Part shown: positions 5,474 through 17,692 of the stretch, piece after piece
Numbering within the stretch: position 1 is the first letter of the stretch
Layout: every line of letters begins with the position of its first letter
DNA from: Rhodoferax sp. AJA081-3
GTDB lineage: Bacteria > Pseudomonadota > Gammaproteobacteria > Burkholderiales > Burkholderiaceae_C
DNA length: 64,000 bases
Assembly: GCF_017798165.1 (NCBI RefSeq)
Contig: NZ_CP059068.1
Span: 1,984,001-2,048,000 of the forward strand
Reading direction: 5' to 3'
Translations under genes and position numbers: made by a program
Notes under the pieces: generated by a model
Database searches by the model: none
Told to the model about the DNA's origin: nothing
Seen by the model: the letters and a program-made list of their open reading frames with translations, nothing else

Positions 5474-5550
5474 TGGTAGGGCGTGAGTGACTTGAACACT
5501 CGACCAAAGGATTATGAGTCCTCTGCTCTAACCAACTGAGCTAACGCCCC
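5474..5550 (-). tRNA. tRNA with CAU anticodon (elongator Met, or Ile2)
   Basis: Read on the minus strand, 77 nt including encoded CCA (5474-5476). The acceptor stem is GGGGCGT/ACGCCCT (one G-U at 1-72), the D stem GCTC/GAGC, the anticodon stem GAGGA/TCCTT with loop CTCATAA, and the T arm reads GTTCAAG. Anticodon CAT is encoded at 5514-5516. The anticodon and variable-loop context resembles bacterial tRNA-Ile2, whose C34 is lysidinylated by TilS, as well as elongator Met, so the amino acid is not certain. The element integrated in its anticodon loop, and the 5' half plus promoter-proximal DNA are element-derived. Confidence 0.93.
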
Positions 5551-5569
5551 AAACCAGCGGGTGATTGTA
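5512..5569. repeat. Left attachment-site repeat (58 bp), within the tRNA
   Basis: Identical over 58 bp to 17588-17645. It starts in the anticodon loop and runs through the 5' half of the tRNA and 19 bp of upstream DNA. It ends exactly with TACAAT (minus strand, 5564-5569), a plausible -10 box. Identity covering the 5' rather than the 3' half of a tRNA is unusual for integrative elements. Confidence 0.92.
5564..5569 (-). promoter_or_regulatory. Candidate -10 box of the tRNA gene
   Basis: TACAAT on the minus strand, 13 nt upstream of the tRNA 5' end. A TTGACC hexamer lies upstream on the same strand, but with a short 14-nt spacer, so the -35 assignment is weak. The -10 belongs to the att repeat; the upstream part is element DNA, so the element supplies most of this promoter. 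Confidence 0.4.
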
Positions 5570-5665
5570 ATGGGGTTGCTGGAGGTCAATTTGTGGCGGT
5601 GCAACAGTTTGCCCAGCTACCTCAGCAGTATCTCGAATTTGGGGCGTTTGGAAGCAATTGGCCCA

Positions 5666-5758: not shown

Positions 5759-6595
5759 TCAAATGTTAAATGCTGTTTTCACATGTGATAGCAGTGACTT
5801 CAGAGAACGTTCATTTCCAATAGTGTTATTTTTCGCATCTCTTTGGGAAAGAAATGCTTCGCGTATTCTTTTGAGAAGTGCGAGCTCTTCTGAAGGACTC
5901 CAAGACGGCAGGGCCCGCCAATCCTTTGCCCATCGGGTGACAAGGGCTTCAAAAAGTTCATTATTTGCAGCTTGCACCAATGCCGTGCAAACACTGCCTG
6001 CCGCTTGCAACTCAGCGTACTGGAGTCTTACTTTTAATGGGTCCTTTGTCCTACTCAGACCCAGCTTGATGGCATTTTTCCCCGCTACGATGTGTCCAGA
6101 ATGAACAACTGCGTGTCTAAGTTCGCAAAGCTTGTCATATTCTCTGAGCATTAAATCAAGTGTCCCATTGGATCGAATTTGATAATTCACAAAGTTTTTG
6201 ATTGCCTTGTTAATATTGTCGGCGCTCGAAAATGCGAAAAACTCAAATGCTGACCGGTTCTGCAAATTACCCTCCGACCACAAGAGGGAACCCAACTGAA
6301 CTTTTTCGTCTGCAGAATGTGCTTGAGCAATCGGACATAAGGTGAGAGTCAATCCCAGAATATCTCGAAAATAGTTCTCAGTCGACGAGATCAAACCGAC
6401 AAAGAGTAAACCAGCAATTTCTTCACCGTAATTCACGAAGAAGGCTGGATCAATTTTAGTTAACGTCGTACTTGTCGAGCTGTAAAAGTTGTCGATAGCA
6501 GACGTCTTTTTGCTCGGAACTCCGACTACCAGCTTGTTGACATCCGGGCACGAGACTCGCCCGACGGACATGCAAACAGAGTTCTGCCAAGTCAT
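5759..6595 (-). CDS. HEPN-like candidate ribonuclease, second gene of an ATPase-HEPN pair
   Basis: 278 residues, largely helical, no signal peptide. Residues 158-168 read CELRHAVVHSG: R160-x4-H165 is the HEPN catalytic signature of many RNA-cleaving toxins and defence effectors. The surrounding helices (DLMLREYDKLCELRH before it, the LQYAELQAAGSVCTALVQA region after it) fit a HEPN helical bundle. The start ATG overlaps the TGA of the ATPase gene (ATGA, 4 bp), so the two are translationally coupled. Base composition is visibly more AT-rich than the host genes. Inference: the RNase effector of a two-gene defence system controlled by the ATPase. No close family name is recognised. Confidence 0.75.
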   Translation of the reverse strand: MTWQNSVCMSVGRVSCPDVNKLVVGVPSKKTSAIDNFYSSTSTTLTKIDPAFFVNYGEEIAGLLFVGLISSTENYFRDILGLTLTLCPIAQAHSADEKVQLGSLLWSEGNLQNRSAFEFFAFSSADNINKAIKNFVNYQIRSNGTLDLMLREYDKLCELRHAVVHSGHIVAGKNAIKLGLSRTKDPLKVRLQYAELQAAGSVCTALVQAANNELFEALVTRWAKDWRALPSWSPSEELALLKRIREAFLSQRDAKNNTIGNERSLKSLLSHVKTAFNI

Positions 6596-8268
6596 TCTAC
6601 AAATTCCTCAGCTAGCCCGACTATTCGAGCGGCCCAGTATTTCCCTATTCGATCAATGCTTAGCAGTTCGCTATGCTCATGGTCATATAGTATGTCCTTG
6701 ATTTTTCGAATCGACGATTGCTCCTTTATTTTTTGAAGCCGAATCTTGGTAAGCGGGAGTTCATCGATATCCGCATTCATCAAGGAAAGGTAAGTTGATG
6801 GAATAGTGAGCGGCGTACCACATTTGGCACAAAATTTCGCATCTTCGAAAAGACGGGGTGTTTGGCAAACACTGCATGGTGGTAATGACAGTGCAAATGC
6901 ATGATCAGGTTTAGCCTTTCCAATCAAATTGATCGAGCGTGTTCTCGTAAATTCATGGGCATTTCGCTTTGAAAAAGCTGTGACATAGTCTTGGATGCTA
7001 AGCGACTTAGCACCGATTAGCGCATTTGAGTCAATCAATCCAGCATAGTGAAGGGTGTAGATTTGAAATCGCCCCTTTTCACCGCGGCTCACCAACTCAT
7101 CTTTTGGAATGCAAAGGCCAGCATATTGAAAGAGAGCAAAAACCTTAGACATTTCGTGTGACAAGTCTTCGCTGGATATTGCAATCGAAACGCTCTGCTT
7201 ATCAGTGCCCTTCTCTTTGTTATATGCCTTCACTAGCCCAATGGCGTTGCTTAGGATCACCTCTCCTGTGGAAATAAAGCTTTTATATACCGGAAGTTTT
7301 GCTGACAACGAGGTGAATAGTTTCTTTGTATTTGTGAAATGCTGTTTGATTGCACGAAGAACATCCGTTCTGCTCAGATTAATTTTTTCGAGCTCGCCAT
7401 TTTTTTCTATCGAAAGCTCCTGAAGCATATTTAGCAGAGTTCGGGGAATACCAAATGATGCGTAACTCAGAAGATCAATGGCTTCTGAATTTGTCAGCGT
7501 ATTGGCAATTGCTTCAGGAAAGCGCGTCTGTATGAAGGCGTGCATAAAACGGAGATAGGCTTCGCGATCTGGTTTTATCCAAACATCGATCTGTTCTGCG
7601 TCATGACCAACATGGAATGAAGACGAGTAATTGGTGACTCCCGGATAGACCGCTGCCTTTGGCGATATGGCTTGAGATTTAATCTGTCGAAAAAAGTCAA
7701 AAAAGTCGCGCTGCTGATCGACGGAAAATGCATGTGCTGCATCGTCTAGCAGCAAAACGCATCTATTGCGGTTCAGGCGCTCAATTACTCGATGGATATC
7801 CGCCTCAAGCACTGGTACCGATAAAGTTTGCAGATTGACCTTAGAGGCATTTGACATCTCTAACAAAGAGGCGGCCTTGGTAGCATCCTCCCTAGAAATA
7901 GACATCTCCAAGTTACTATTCAATCGATCCAGGGTGGCATATATGCCTAGATATAGCTTTAGTATGACCCATTGATTGAACCAATAAGTGCCGTCTGTCC
8001 CAGTCTTGTAAATTGGTTCAATTGATAGCGATCTTTTGTAATTTACGTAGACTGGAAATGCTGCATCGGGGTTATGCACCATCGTGTGAAAACCCTTAAG
8101 CATTAGCGTTGTTTTGCCACACCCTCTCGGTCCAGATATGAGCTTTGCACCACCCTGTGTCAATTTTTTAATGATGATTTTTTCATCCGGATGTTCCGCA
8201 TGCCACTGCGTGAAAGAATCATCTGCGAGATACTCCGCTTGTTCTACAAAAACTTGTTCGAATGACAT
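6592..8268 (-). CDS. AAA/STAND-like P-loop ATPase with zinc ribbon and RNAP alpha-CTD-like tail
   Basis: 558 residues from ATG 8268; an in-frame TTG at 8367 would add 33 residues. Walker A is GPRGCGKTT (residues 46-54) and Walker B CVLLLDD (170-176), in an ORC/Cdc6- or STAND-like NTPase core. A winged-helix-like stretch occupies about residues 330-420. A four-cysteine zinc ribbon follows (CSVCQ ... CAKCG; Cys 465, 468, 480, 483). The last 60 residues (ELPLTKIRLQ ... LLSIDRIGKYWAARIVGL) resemble the helix-hairpin-helix of the RNA polymerase alpha C-terminal domain. It overlaps the HEPN gene by 4 bp. Inference: sensor/switch subunit of a defence module that may detect nucleic acid or transcription complexes. 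Confidence 0.8.
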   Translation of the reverse strand: MSFEQVFVEQAEYLADDSFTQWHAEHPDEKIIIKKLTQGGAKLISGPRGCGKTTLMLKGFHTMVHNPDAAFPVYVNYKRSLSIEPIYKTGTDGTYWFNQWVILKLYLGIYATLDRLNSNLEMSISREDATKAASLLEMSNASKVNLQTLSVPVLEADIHRVIERLNRNRCVLLLDDAAHAFSVDQQRDFFDFFRQIKSQAISPKAAVYPGVTNYSSSFHVGHDAEQIDVWIKPDREAYLRFMHAFIQTRFPEAIANTLTNSEAIDLLSYASFGIPRTLLNMLQELSIEKNGELEKINLSRTDVLRAIKQHFTNTKKLFTSLSAKLPVYKSFISTGEVILSNAIGLVKAYNKEKGTDKQSVSIAISSEDLSHEMSKVFALFQYAGLCIPKDELVSRGEKGRFQIYTLHYAGLIDSNALIGAKSLSIQDYVTAFSKRNAHEFTRTRSINLIGKAKPDHAFALSLPPCSVCQTPRLFEDAKFCAKCGTPLTIPSTYLSLMNADIDELPLTKIRLQKIKEQSSIRKIKDILYDHEHSELLSIDRIGKYWAARIVGLAEEFVE

Positions 8269-8541: not shown

Positions 8542-9903
8542 CTAGAATCTTCGTGATTCTTTTGAAGCTTGAGCTTTTTCCTTGTACATATTCATGTAGC
8601 TCTTTGAGGTCAATATTAAAGCTCCGCGACCCACCTTATTTGCTACTGAAACCACATTTAACTCATTCCCAAACTTGTCTGTCCAAAGAGTGTCAACCGA
8701 TTCGATTTTGACTCCAAATTTCGTCTCCAGTTTCTCAGCGGAAGTTTTCGGCTTACCCAGCTTTTTAGTAAATCCCTTTACGAAAACCTGAAAAACCTCA
8801 CTATTTGAGACCAACGATCCTTCACCGCTAGCGAGATCTGTAGTCAGATCATCTTTTCCAAACAAGCAGACTAACTTGACGAGAATATTCTTCTCGTTAT
8901 ATTCATCAGCACACATAACACCATATCCACCAATATCAATCAAACCGAACTTTGTCTTTAGGTCGGAAACTTCTTCCTTTGAAGAGTAGCCTGGATAAAT
9001 TCCTACGACATCGATCCACCCTGCAGGGGCTTTTTGCGTAGGGATTTGAAATGCCTTTAAATAGGAATTTAAATATTGTCTACTTATCTTGATGACTTCC
9101 GCAGTTACACCGCCCCCTAGCAAAATGGCCTTCATTTCCTCAGAGGCTTTTCTATTCGCGCGCCATTCATTGGATCGACTGAATTGTGGTAACTCTGAGA
9201 TGTAGTCATTGAGGGTGTATACAAGTAATAGCGACTTCAAGCCTTCCGTTTTCTTTCCTTGCAGTATTTTTTCTGCAGAGTCATTTGACACTTTGATTGA
9301 TACATCTACAAGGGCCTTCGCTCGAAAGGTACTTCTTTGCTCTCCAAATAGAGCAATCCAATCCTCAAGAGATATGCCAACTTCACCCTGCGTGCGCCCC
9401 AAACTATTAGATTTTGCCGTTTGTGTGTCTCCAGTAGCTTGCAGTGAGTCCACTCTGTTGTCTGTGGACTTCACAGACTTCACGGGAGATCTCGTCCGAC
9501 TGTGCGAGCCGGCTTCATCGGCAGAAATCAAACCCAGATTTTCGGCATGTTGGCAAACCGCCCGCAATTCATCGCCTGCTATTGTGTTGGGATATGTTGA
9601 GTAAAGACTCATATCCGACCACTGTCCACGCATGGATGTCAGGCAGTTAACTACCAGACTTTCAAGTGGCCCATAAGTCAAAGGCCCCCATCTCGAATCG
9701 AAGGCCCTTCCCGTGAATTTGAGGTTTAAACCAACCCGTTCAATAGATTCGATGTCTACTTCGCGATGGTGTAAGAATTTGCGCCCCGTTGTCAGGTTAG
9801 TTGACTCGTCGCTATGGACAAGCAACCATGTCGATGCAAATATATTTCCCGAAAATGTCAATATGCAGAAAAGTATCATTGTCCGCACAAATTTCATTAA
9901 CAT
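8542..9903 (-). CDS. Secreted protein of unknown function in the element cargo
   Basis: 453 residues. The start at 9903 has AAGGAG five bases upstream. A Sec signal peptide is clear (FVRTMILFCILTFSGNIFA, then STW). The first 110 mature residues (TWLLVHSDE ... VVNC ... ELRAVCQ) loosely recall the surface-adhesin E fold, with two cysteines that could pair. The middle is Ser/Thr-rich and the C-terminal half is not recognised. It is AT-rich like the two genes downstream, but separated from them by about 270 bp and so probably has its own transcript. Its role in the element is unknown. Confidence 0.65.
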   Translation of the reverse strand: MLMKFVRTMILFCILTFSGNIFASTWLLVHSDESTNLTTGRKFLHHREVDIESIERVGLNLKFTGRAFDSRWGPLTYGPLESLVVNCLTSMRGQWSDMSLYSTYPNTIAGDELRAVCQHAENLGLISADEAGSHSRTRSPVKSVKSTDNRVDSLQATGDTQTAKSNSLGRTQGEVGISLEDWIALFGEQRSTFRAKALVDVSIKVSNDSAEKILQGKKTEGLKSLLLVYTLNDYISELPQFSRSNEWRANRKASEEMKAILLGGGVTAEVIKISRQYLNSYLKAFQIPTQKAPAGWIDVVGIYPGYSSKEEVSDLKTKFGLIDIGGYGVMCADEYNEKNILVKLVCLFGKDDLTTDLASGEGSLVSNSEVFQVFVKGFTKKLGKPKTSAEKLETKFGVKIESVDTLWTDKFGNELNVVSVANKVGRGALILTSKSYMNMYKEKAQASKESRRF

Positions 9904-11668: not shown

Positions 11669-12127
11669 ATGTCTGAAAATATTTCTGAGGTTGCGTCAGA
11701 GGTTGATCCCATTGAGCCAATCTTTCAAGGCCAATGTCTGTCACTGTCCGAAAGGTCAACGCTGACATTTGCAATTGGCCGCCACGTTAAGGATGCAACC
11801 TTACATATACGGCTTCTGAAGAATAGCGGTGGCGGGCGTTTTTTTGACGGTTGGGCGGCGGGCACCGTCATTCAAGATGTCGTGCTGGGGGAGACTGGTC
11901 TTACAGCCAAATCCTTTCACATCGTCCAGCCTCAGAGGTCGGTGAACAACTCCTGCTTCCTTATGGCCGTGATTAAAGACCTCGGCCTCATACGCGCCAA
12001 CGAGCAAAACAGCCGCGTCCACGACCACGTACCAGGCACCACGATGGAGCAACTTGTGTCGGCACTTCTCTCCGAGTCCAAGAACGCTGAGTCAAAGGCT
12101 GCGCGCCGCAAAGCAAAGGAGACCTGA
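11669..12127 (+). CDS. Hypothetical protein
   Basis: 152 residues from ATG 11669, with AAGGAA 7 nt upstream. Soluble; the C-terminus is a charged helix (SESKNAESKAARRKAKE). No known motif was recognised. Its stop lies immediately before the next small membrane gene (TTG 12128 / GTG 12131), whose Shine-Dalgarno AAGGAG is inside this coding sequence. The two are therefore co-translated. Confidence 0.65.
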   Translation: MSENISEVASEVDPIEPIFQGQCLSLSERSTLTFAIGRHVKDATLHIRLLKNSGGGRFFDGWAAGTVIQDVVLGETGLTAKSFHIVQPQRSVNNSCFLMAVIKDLGLIRANEQNSRVHDHVPGTTMEQLVSALLSESKNAESKAARRKAKET

Positions 12128-13620: not shown

Positions 13621-15264
13621 ATGGAGATTAACCCCATTGCCCCCGATATGCCTGGCGATTTAGATGGTCGGAAAAGTGAGAATCAGAGTGTAAGTTCAGC
13701 GGTTACTAGGGCGGTGCACGATGTGCCGCCGTTTAGGGCCATTTCGGCCAATGAAAGAGAGTTTGATAGTGATAGCCCGGCGGACGTGCGGGAAATTGAT
13801 GGTGATAGTGCCGCTGCCGGGAAGATGGAAGAGAAAACCGTTTTAGATAGGGCCGTTGCAGATGGCAGCGTGCCGATGGTGGCCAGCGCAACAGGTCCTC
13901 CAGATTTGAATGTGCTCGATGCAGTTCCTGAATCTGAACCACAGGTGCTTATCGATGCGAGAAAGTTGAATTGGGATGATGATGGTAGCAAGAACCAGCT
14001 ATTGAACAAAGGCCTGGATGCTGCCAAAGCAATAGAGTCACCGCCGTTTCCAAATCAACCGAGATATGCGAGCGACGGTCTACCGCCGACCATTGCCAAT
14101 GTCCAGCACATGCTCGATCAGTATGGAATATCAGCTCGATATAACGTCATAAAGAAAAAACTGGAGATTCGACTGCCGGACAAGGGCGGGACTGCGGACA
14201 ACGCCGACAACACGGCCATGACCACGATAATGAGTTTGGCAACCCTCAACAGGATGCAGGCAGCTCCGGTACCTGCGATCGTTGAAGTCATAGGTGACCG
14301 AAACCCCTACAACCCTGTTGCAAGATGGATCTTGAAGACACCCTGGGATGGCATCAAACGTGTGCAGGCTATCTGCGACACGCTGAGGACGCGTGAGGGG
14401 TTCCCAGCGCATTTGAAGATAGTGTTGGTCTACAAGTGGCTGCTGAGTACAGTTGCCGCCGCGCTCCAGCCATCCGGTTTCAAGGGTCGCGGAGTGCTGG
14501 TCCTTCAGGGGCCTCAGGGGATTGGCAAAACCTCTTGGGTGATGTCGCTTGTACCCGTACCCAGCCTGCGTGACAAGGTGGTCAAGGTCGATCACCATTT
14601 AGACGCAAATAGTAAGGACTCCATCCTGGGGGCCATTACCCACTGGCTCGTTGAAATTGGTGAGCTTGACAGTTCTTTCCGTAAAGACTTTGCGCGTCTT
14701 AAAGGTGTTTTGACAAGTGACTCTGACAAGGTGCGCCGACCATATGCGCGAACTGAGTCGGAATATCAGCGGCGTACGGTCTTTGCGGCCACGGTGAATG
14801 ACGAAAACTTTCTGGTGGATCACACGGGCAATACGCGATGGTGGACCCTCCCGCTGGTGTCGATTGACTTCAATCACGGCATCGACATGCAACAGCTTCT
14901 TGCTGAACTGGCTTGGGACTGGGCCAACGGCAAGCAGTGGTGGCTGACCAAGGAAGAGGAAGCCCTACTTGAGTCTTGCAATAGTGACCACCGTACCAAC
15001 AGCGTCATACGCGACCTCTTGCTGGGCATCATTGACCTGGACAAGAAAAATGCGCCCGGCAACCCCTACAAATCGACCAGCGAATTGTTCGTGATGTTGG
15101 GCATTACCAACCCCAAAAACGGGGATTCGAAGGAACTGACTGGAATCCTGCGTGAGCTGCTGGGTGATTCAAAGAAGGTCAAAGGCATACAAAAATGGCG
15201 TATCCCCATGCGCAAGGGTGATAAGTTAGGTCGAGACCTGTTAGGGCACAGGGTCGTTCGATAA
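13621..15264 (+). CDS. VapE/VirE-family replication helicase
   Basis: 547 residues. Residues 1-155 are low-complexity and acidic. The C-terminal two thirds is a VapE/VirE P-loop ATPase, found as replication protein of phage satellites and islands: Walker A GPQGIGKTS (297-305), Walker B-like HWLVEIGELD (341-350), then FRKDFARLKG, RRPYARTESEYQRR and the arginine motif TGNTRWW (403-409). No primase (Toprim or Prim-Pol) domain is seen at the N-terminus, so priming must come from elsewhere. Probable role: helicase for element replication or stabilisation. The rRNA-leader-like and inverted-repeat DNA upstream could contain its origin. Confidence 0.88.
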   Translation: MEINPIAPDMPGDLDGRKSENQSVSSAVTRAVHDVPPFRAISANEREFDSDSPADVREIDGDSAAAGKMEEKTVLDRAVADGSVPMVASATGPPDLNVLDAVPESEPQVLIDARKLNWDDDGSKNQLLNKGLDAAKAIESPPFPNQPRYASDGLPPTIANVQHMLDQYGISARYNVIKKKLEIRLPDKGGTADNADNTAMTTIMSLATLNRMQAAPVPAIVEVIGDRNPYNPVARWILKTPWDGIKRVQAICDTLRTREGFPAHLKIVLVYKWLLSTVAAALQPSGFKGRGVLVLQGPQGIGKTSWVMSLVPVPSLRDKVVKVDHHLDANSKDSILGAITHWLVEIGELDSSFRKDFARLKGVLTSDSDKVRRPYARTESEYQRRTVFAATVNDENFLVDHTGNTRWWTLPLVSIDFNHGIDMQQLLAELAWDWANGKQWWLTKEEEALLESCNSDHRTNSVIRDLLLGIIDLDKKNAPGNPYKSTSELFVMLGITNPKNGDSKELTGILRELLGDSKKVKGIQKWRIPMRKGDKLGRDLLGHRVVR

Positions 15265-16083: not shown

Positions 16084-16143
16084 TTTTTCACCTTGCAGTC
16101 ACTGACCCGAAAGGGTTGGTGATTGCATTCAAGGAGATACAAA

Positions 16144-17337
16144 ATTCCCGTAATACAAAACTTCCAGGCCTTCATGGCCAATGGCCTTGTGTGCCCGCCC
16201 GGCAAGGTCAAAATCGAGTACAGCGTCGCAGACGAGCCCGGTCTGTTTGTGGAATGTCGCGCTTCGTCCACGGCTGTTCCGATGTGGTACCTGCGTTTAA
16301 AGAACTCCAGCGGCACCAATGTTTATCGAAAGCTAGGGGCAGTGCGCGAACTGTCTTTGGCGCAGGCTCGCAAACTTGCAAAGCAAACGCGCACTGAGCA
16401 TCTTGCGGCGCGTTCGCAGGCACCCAAAGCCGATGCGCCAAAATCCGAAATCACCTTGCAGAAGTTCATGACCGACTTCTACATGCCCCATGCACTAACG
16501 CACAAGCGTACGGCAGGCAAGGACCTGGGTATGTTTAATCACCGCATTGCGTCGCGCTTCGGGCACGTTGCTATGCATGCGATTTCGCGCCTGGACGTAC
16601 AGCTTTTCCACAGTGAACTAGTGCAAAAGGTTGGCGTCAGCAAAGCGACGGCGGACCATCACCTAAAGCTCATGCGGCGCATGCTGAATCTAGCAGTACA
16701 GTGGGAATTTCTCGAAAAAAATCAGTTGGCACGTATAGCGTGCTTCAACCAAGATACCCAGCTTGAAAACTACCTCGATGCAGATTCAGTTCAGCGTCTG
16801 GTCACGGTGTGTAAGTCACACCCGAAAAGAGTGATAGGGTTGCTGTTGATGTTCTTGCTTAGCACTGGCGCGCGCAAAGCCTCAGCCATGCACGCGAAGT
16901 GGGAAGACATCGATATTGCCAACCGGGTTTGGCGCATTCCCGCGTCCGACAGCAAATCTAAAAAAGTCGCTACCGTGTTCCTCAATGAAAGCGCAATTTG
17001 GGTCCTAAACCAGCTGCAGGTTGAAGGGGTCAAAGGCTATGTCTTTGTTCACGAACGCACCAAAAAACCATACTCGGGGATTGAGAAGACCTGGTACGCC
17101 ATTCGCAAGTTGGCGTCGATAAGTGAAAAAGTTCGTGTGCATGATTTGCGCCACACGTACGCAAGTATGTTGGTGACGAGCGGGCGCAGCCTGTACGAGG
17201 TGCAGAAACTGCTTTCGCACAGTGACCCAAAGGTCACTATGCGCTATGCCCATCTGTCGCCGAAGACCTTGCACGAGGCGGCCAGTGCTGCTTCCGTTTT
17301 GGTAGCGTCGAATACCACTCCGGCATTGGCGCCATAG
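16144..17337 (+). CDS. int: Tyrosine recombinase / integrase of the element
   Basis: About 397 residues. The catalytic domain carries the family residues: Arg in STGARKASAMHAKWEDI, His-x2-Arg in VHDLRHTYASML, His in LLSHSDPKVTM and the nucleophile Tyr in MRYAHLS. An N-terminal arm-binding region and a SAM-like core-binding domain (FMTDFYMPHALTHKRTAGKD) precede it. The start is uncertain: AAGGAG at 16131-16136 lies 7 nt before an ATT codon (16144). In-frame alternatives are TTG 16123, which precedes the Shine-Dalgarno, and ATG 16174 with no good site. It sits about 250 bp from the right att repeat and should catalyse integration at the tRNA anticodon loop. Confidence 0.93.
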   Translation: MPVIQNFQAFMANGLVCPPGKVKIEYSVADEPGLFVECRASSTAVPMWYLRLKNSSGTNVYRKLGAVRELSLAQARKLAKQTRTEHLAARSQAPKADAPKSEITLQKFMTDFYMPHALTHKRTAGKDLGMFNHRIASRFGHVAMHAISRLDVQLFHSELVQKVGVSKATADHHLKLMRRMLNLAVQWEFLEKNQLARIACFNQDTQLENYLDADSVQRLVTVCKSHPKRVIGLLLMFLLSTGARKASAMHAKWEDIDIANRVWRIPASDSKSKKVATVFLNESAIWVLNQLQVEGVKGYVFVHERTKKPYSGIEKTWYAIRKLASISEKVRVHDLRHTYASMLVTSGRSLYEVQKLLSHSDPKVTMRYAHLSPKTLHEAASAASVLVASNTTPALAP

Positions 17338-17587: not shown

Positions 17588-17645
17588 TTATGAGTCCTCT
17601 GCTCTAACCAACTGAGCTAACGCCCCAAACCAGCGGGTGATTGTA
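17588..17645. repeat. Right attachment-site repeat: 5'-half tRNA remnant
   Basis: A perfect 58-bp copy of 5512-5569, from the anticodon loop through the tRNA 5' end and 19 bp beyond. The 3' half of the tRNA is missing here (the preceding sequence does not pair), so this copy is not a functional tRNA. DNA to its right is the original chromosomal upstream region of the tRNA. Confidence 0.92.
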
Positions 17646-17692
17646 GTGGCCCAAAATCGCGGATTCCGTGCCAAAGTGGGTCGAATGCCACA

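Follow-up and report, generated by a model that had tools for sequence, protein, structure and literature searches.

Within a window of 64,000 nucleotides (nt) of Rhodoferax sp. AJA081-3 (contig NZ_CP059068.1, positions 1,984,001 to 2,048,000, the whole stretch of DNA analysed here), two overlapping genes lie at the left end of an integrative element of about 12 kb at tRNA-Met. With a probability of about 0.68, we consider this pair to be a two-gene abortive-defence module on the element, in which a sensor ATPase would license a HEPN RNase. A preliminary description, made from the sequence alone, had proposed the pair as a candidate anti-phage system; the coordinates and Walker motifs that it gave for the ATPase were right, and the start of the partner gene overlaps the ATPase stop by 4 bp, as it had said. 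We add that both genes are on the minus strand (Table 1).

Results

A probable HEPN protein with an invariant motif

The smaller protein, of 278 amino acids (aa), contains the sequence RHAVVH, which the preliminary description had placed in a helical context and taken as the R-x4-H signature of HEPN ribonucleases. In the AlphaFold2 model (mean predicted local distance difference test score, pLDDT, 90) residues 145-165 form a single helix, in agreement with that placement. R160, H161 and H165 were invariant in all 32 aligned homologues, with identity down to 34%, and again in 31/31 rows of a wider alignment, with identity down to 17%. Because of this invariance the R-x4-H is not a chance occurrence. 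In addition, C-x-h-R-H-x3-H was kept in 120 of the 120 listed homologues (the best 120 of 150). Active HEPN families show such an invariant R/H pair (accessible part of PMC3710099).

Pfam family PF18735 was matched by 21 of the 32 aligned homologues at E <=1 (best 7.6e-6), and a precomputed assignment to it was present on three of the homologues listed. Run directly against PF18735 loci, the A1 hidden Markov model (HMM) profile gave too faint a signal to be of use (best E 0.014), and profiles were therefore compared with profiles. When 31 family members were compared by hhalign with 15 PF18735 members from unrelated genomes, the result was 96.5% (E 9.4e-10) over 156 columns, including the conserved E and the R-x4-H, and was still 94.2% after masking of the R and H columns. 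The reversed control gave 0.1% and ten column-shuffled controls 0.0-0.3%. This result indicates that the 278-aa protein is probably a HEPN protein, an assignment made by profile comparison and not confirmed by the fold searches described below.

The ATPase

The 558-aa protein is an AAA+ ATPase of the STAND/ORC-CDC6 type. It scored 45.6 bits against the ORC-CDC6-like ATPase family PF24389, passing the cut-off of 27, and its fold was similar to Cdc6/ORC and TnsC by fold comparison. The double-zinc-ribbon profile was matched by 27 of 30 ATPase family members at E <=0.1. A helix-hairpin-helix assignment of the C-terminal tail is weak: six of eight homologous tails matched HHH_5 (E 3.6e-4 to 0.03), every one under the curated cut-off, and the tail of the window's own ATPase was unmatched by this profile. 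Sequence search of solved structures gave no match for either protein, and tblastn with the ATPase gave none in 50,697 phage records. The type of the ATPase was beyond the reach of the preliminary description, as was the methyltransferase-bearing sister clade described below.

The two genes occur together

ATPase-led searches yielded 24 loci in which a related ATPase is near full length, from Pseudomonadota, Bacillota, Verrucomicrobiota, plasmids and viral contigs. A HEPN frame adjoined the ATPase in all 24, the two genes usually overlapping or lying a few bases apart, and homologous adjacent pairs, a search for which the preliminary description had suggested, thus do exist. Near-copies with the same gene order and the same or nearly the same HMM scores are present among these loci (L003/L007, L060/L061 and L057/L058/L059), so that the independent paired loci are fewer, about 20. 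Set aside from the 24 were L008 (two ATPase fragments, with no HEPN frame found), L069/G606 (decayed ATPase and HEPN fragments adjoining), 38 records of Piscirickettsia plasmids in which both proteins had partial matches, an ATPase on a Planktothrix plasmid (24% identity), four marginal matches (L070-L073) and seven distant ATPases (L013-L018 and L074).

The HEPN gene was broken and the ATPase open in two of the 24 loci, by a frameshift in L002 and an insertion in L003. Inspection by eye of the latter (L003, 11665-14105) found the HEPN gene, which is located within a BREX operon, interrupted by a 411-aa IS110-type-transposase-like frame; the near-identical L007 is intact. At the seven more distant ATPases (97-130 bits), no HEPN frame was found within about 1 kb, and pairing is therefore a trait of this clade and not of PF24389 at large. 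At six of these, L013-L018, another gene of 250-300 aa overlaps or abuts the ATPase start in at least five of the six loci, and this neighbour is perhaps a second ATPase pairing.

When the ATPase and HEPN distance matrices of 19 intact pairs were compared, they correlated strongly (Mantel r 0.87, reached in 0/9999 permutations), as is also expected if both genes just track the same host lineages. In the protein database, 39 of the 120 HEPN matches listed were on contigs equal in size to that of a listed ATPase match, which points, roughly, to this linkage as well. Homologues of the pair also exist on plasmids.

A three-gene sister clade with a DNA methyltransferase

In a sister clade the pair is joined by a third gene, for an N6-type DNA methyltransferase, which lies immediately upstream in each of the 11 three-gene loci. 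The clade is monophyletic (support 100/100), with one label change on the tree (0/500 shuffles). The methyltransferase motifs DLxxGxG and NPP[FY] were retained in the nine copies checked (9/9), that of E. coli HS included. The proteins of the E. coli HS module are WP_001375306.1, WP_000132879.1 and WP_000920175.1. The C-terminal part of the L061 methyltransferase matched type I specificity-subunit profiles (E 2.3e-9), and the L057 methyltransferase gave a full-length match to the PADLOC type II methyltransferase model (784 bits). In L060 (8714-9940) the methyltransferase frame is split and in the similar L061 it is open; the ATPase and HEPN frames are open in both. Of 5426 complete E. coli genomes, 148 carry the E. 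coli form, and in 145 of these the match covers at least 80% of the query. In E. coli NCTC9113 it adjoins an integrase at tRNA-Thr. NCBI names the E. coli ATPase 'ORC-CDC6 family AAA ATPase' and its neighbour a hypothetical protein in the ten matches listed.

Positions beside defence systems

Several loci lie within or next to known defence systems. In Lachnospiraceae, a two-gene pair is placed between pglX and pglZ inside a bacteriophage exclusion (BREX) operon, for which PADLOC confirmed BrxA, BrxB, BrxC, PglX, PglZ and BrxL. The three-gene form of E. coli HS is 1.7 kb from brxA, and at least 80% of the stretch comprising the module and brxABC is held by 15 of the 5426 E. coli genomes. Type I restriction genes flank the module on both sides in E. 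coli H3, and a type II methyltransferase and a restriction enzyme adjoin the pair in L004. The neighbour in L006 gave a partial match only, to the candidate PDC-M26A. In several viral contigs, read by eye, the module adjoins tail or lysis genes. The anti-phage role proposed in the preliminary description thus gains from the BREX and restriction-modification neighbours of several loci, but protection and sensing are themselves still predictions.

The integrative element

The tRNA-borne element reported earlier is confirmed by an integrase and a 62-nt repeat at tRNA-Met. The GC content drops from 62% in the remaining window to 49% in the element and 44% in the pair. In the congener G705, the joined flanks align over the junction (query 70-213, junction at 174, 88% identity). 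The ATPase was unmatched in 118 of 119 other relatives searched, and G705, the remaining one, has only a distant match of 41% across 64 residues. We therefore conclude that the element is acquired DNA. The left repeat spans the 5′ half of tRNA-Met and 23 upstream bases, the 3′ half being usual, so that the complete tRNA is now preceded on its 5′ side by element-side DNA.

The element has an integrase and a primase at an attachment site, the combination by which P4-like satellites and phage-inducible chromosomal islands (PICI) are recognised. The earlier word 'satellite' is supported to this extent by the integrase and the VapE-like gene, but no gene for packaging, capsid hijacking or other exploitation of a helper phage was recognised when ten element proteins were scanned against PHROGs, most of which have no known function. 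Adjoining the pair is a 453-aa protein (8542-9903, minus strand) with a signal-peptide-like start; it had no match at E <=1 in Pfam, PADLOC or NCBIfam, and its sole PHROG was at E 0.36. A 152-aa element protein (11669-12127, plus strand) matched phrog_28971, of unknown function (E 7.7e-5).

Table 1. Features of the pair and its element, in window positions
Feature	Position	Strand	Basis
HEPN-like gene, 278 aa	5759..6595	-	Translation; hhalign to PF18735 members
R-H-A-V-V-H motif, residues 160-165, predicted catalytic pair R160/H165	6101..6118	-	Conservation
ATPase gene, 558 aa	6592..8268	-	STAND/ORC-CDC6-type AAA+ core, zinc ribbon, helix-hairpin-helix-like tail
Walker A GPRGCGKTT, residues 46-54	8107..8133	-	Sequence; G46, P47, R48, G49, G51, K52, T53 and T54 invariant in 30/30
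Walker B CVLLLDD, residues 170-176	7741..7761	-	Sequence; D175 and D176 invariant in 30/30
Zinc ribbon C-x2-C...C-x2-C, residues 465-483	6820..6876	-	Sequence; four cysteines invariant in 30/30
Putative helix-hairpin-helix-like C-terminal tail, residues 492-558	6595..6795	-	HHH_5, homologous tails
Left attachment repeat	5512..5573	.	62-nt direct repeat, 98% identical; overlaps 5′ half of tRNA-Met
Right attachment repeat	17588..17649	.	62-nt direct repeat, 98% identical
tRNA-Met(cat), integration target, complete	5474..5550	-	ARAGORN; Rfam RF00005, 70 bits
Tyrosine integrase	16123..17337	+	Phage_integrase PF00589, E 1e-27; phrog_1, E 4.9e-59
VapE-like helicase/primase	13621..15264	+	PF05272, E 6.9e-47; phrog_1313, E 3.4e-49

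Discussion

Proposed mechanism and the points that weigh against it

The domain make-up fits a sensor with its effector, namely an ATP-driven switch of a type that serves in immunity and in the choice of DNA targets, and a predicted RNase as lethal arm. In the abortive-defence reading, the ATPase would hold its HEPN partner in check or in reserve, presumably through physical contact, and would detect a nucleic acid or protein associated with infection. It would then change state with ATP and switch the HEPN protein on, and the RNase, cutting RNA via R160 and H165, would halt growth before phage release. In the three-gene clade, the methyltransferase may offer a self mark.

Several points weigh against this reading. 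The window's HEPN-like protein does not pass the PF18735 cut-off (E 0.026, 14.9 bits versus 28.4), and its RNase activity is predicted. Its model gave no significant fold match in PDB (Foldseek, then VIA-align) or BFVD, an absence that we do not count against the assignment, given the high score of the profile comparison and the near-zero scores of its controls; the HEPN assignment of the preliminary description, for which structure had been the suggested check, stands on the PF18735 comparison and is still compatible with a four-helix HEPN fold. Shared host lineages, as noted above, may account for the parallel divergence. The module is rare among the phylum genomes, where the HEPN protein was found in 2/398 and the ATPase in 8/398, with two full-length pairs. 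Finally, no evident defence gene was found in several neighbourhoods, for example in L002 and on one side in E. coli NCTC9113, and the placement beside defence systems, seen in several loci, is suggestive.

Alternative explanations

The leading alternative, which is tentative, is that the methyltransferase marks self DNA and the ATPase recognises unmarked DNA and unleashes the HEPN RNase, the two-gene members using the methyltransferase of another system or having lost this gate. The constant upstream gene with its retained motifs, the specificity-subunit match in L061 and the fully supported clade favor it, and some two-gene members do have a methyltransferase of another system beside them, which is PglX in L007 and a type II enzyme in L004. 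However, no methyltransferase was present among the ten proteins scanned of the window's element, DNA recognition by the ATPase is putative, the helix-hairpin-helix assignment of its tail is weak, and in L060 the methyltransferase frame is split with the other two frames open. We consider doubtful a broader proposal in which the ATPase would read the methylation state (in the three-gene clade) or another mark of invader DNA and free the HEPN RNase; this would be a widespread restriction-like immunity cutting RNA, not DNA, into which the two-gene forms would fit as a suicide arm plugged into BREX or restriction-modification loci.

An addiction function, in which the ATPase restrains a HEPN toxin that is freed when the element is lost, as in toxin-antitoxin systems, would agree with the tight gene overlap, the mobile-element location, the plasmid homologues and the two toxin-antitoxin-type loci that adjoin L024. 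Nevertheless, antitoxins are usually small and do not resemble an ATPase of 558 aa that has sensor-like domains, and this explanation is unlikely, though it is compatible with a defence role and not exclusive of it. The two loci with a broken HEPN gene and an open ATPase neither require nor exclude addiction.

That the HEPN protein is catalytically silent and acts as an RNA-binding or assembly partner would fit its score under the PF18735 cut-off, but every row examined keeps R160 and H165, and we regard a silent protein as improbable. Least probable is a role in replication or maintenance, with the ORC-CDC6-like ATPase as initiator or loader of the element and the helical protein as a non-nuclease accessory. 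The fold likeness to Cdc6/ORC and TnsC favors it, but a helicase/primase of VapE type is already encoded by the element, the R/H pair is invariant, and the backgrounds in which the pair occurs are unrelated to one another, ranging from plasmids and viral contigs to chromosomal islands and a BREX operon.

Novelty and meaning

Neither window protein is convincingly matched by a model of PADLOC 2023. The window ATPase matched PD-T4-6 (E 0.022) and mad8 (E 0.035) only, with no BrxC, and the three-gene ATPases gave short-stretch matches to mad8 (E 3.7e-5) and HEC-02A (E 7.7e-5). Among the HEPN homologues, one matched RTasHEPN (E 0.0036) and one AbiP (E 0.0053). A literature search that covered the main texts of open-access papers, but not the supplements to the large-scale discovery studies, found no description of an ATPase-HEPN module, so that 'undescribed' is provisional; the earlier statement that the pair matches no named system holds within the same bounds. 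DefensePredictor (PMC13092281) reports four HEPN systems and PMC9519451 six HEPN-like systems, and the module may already be listed among these or in table rows of PMC9122126. The ATPase family is already named by NCBI, and HEPN effectors near BREX have been published in general terms, as the accessible part of PMC12839542 has it. Provisionally, the module belongs to the ATPase-plus-nuclease kind of defence as a variant unmatched to a named system.

If the abortive-defence reading is correct, an NLR-like or ORC-like ATP switch, in one clade together with a DNA self mark, would be coupled to the destruction of RNA. The defence catalogue would gain a new named system, and the ATPase and hypothetical neighbour carried by the 148 E. 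coli genomes would gain a role. It also raises a question approachable in commensal E. coli, namely whether DNA methylation status gates an RNase.

Comparison with known systems

The window family shares profile homology with Ribo L-PSP-HEPN (PF18735), including the conserved E and the R-x4-H. In the accessible part of PMC3710099, the 2013 table gives Ribo L-PSP-HEPN as fused to L-PSP RNase or in ParB operons, and this ATPase is not listed there. The window family differs in being longer and in having its own conserved G-K-N-A and C-terminal region.

As described in the accessible part of PMC12839542, BREX/DUF499 systems (BR/Hma) combine STAND/ORC-CDC6 AAA+ ATPases and N6 methyltransferases with HEPN RNases as proposed backup effectors; HEPN modules near BREX are typically standalone, and that part does not mention an ATPase-HEPN dyad. 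The present module resembles these systems in its ATPase class, in the methyltransferase of the three-gene clade and in its HEPN protein, and one two-gene lineage lies inside a BREX operon. In contrast, it comes without PglZ, BrxC, BrxL or helicase, and its ATPase is encoded apart from its HEPN protein. Among the ten element proteins scanned there was neither a PglZ nor a helicase of the Swi2/Snf2 type.

In the anticodon nucleases PrrC and RloC, an ABC-type ATPase controls a HEPN-type RNase within a single chain, and the genes are linked to DNA modification genes. The combination of an ATPase with a HEPN-type RNase, predicted in the present module, and the linkage to DNA modification genes are similar here, but the window has two genes, with a separate STAND/ORC-type ATPase bearing a zinc ribbon. 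The effector of RADAR is an adenosine deaminase, and from RADAR RdrA and the TnsC-type AAA+ regulators the window ATPase differs in having HEPN as its partner. PARIS is also found on mobile elements. It consists of the OLD-ABC ATPase AriA and the TOPRIM nuclease AriB, which cuts tRNA (accessible part of PMC12839542). Both PARIS and the window pair thus have two genes, for an ATPase and an RNA-cutting effector (predicted in the window pair), the difference being an OLD-ABC ATPase with a TOPRIM nuclease in the former and a STAND/ORC-CDC6 ATPase with HEPN in the latter.
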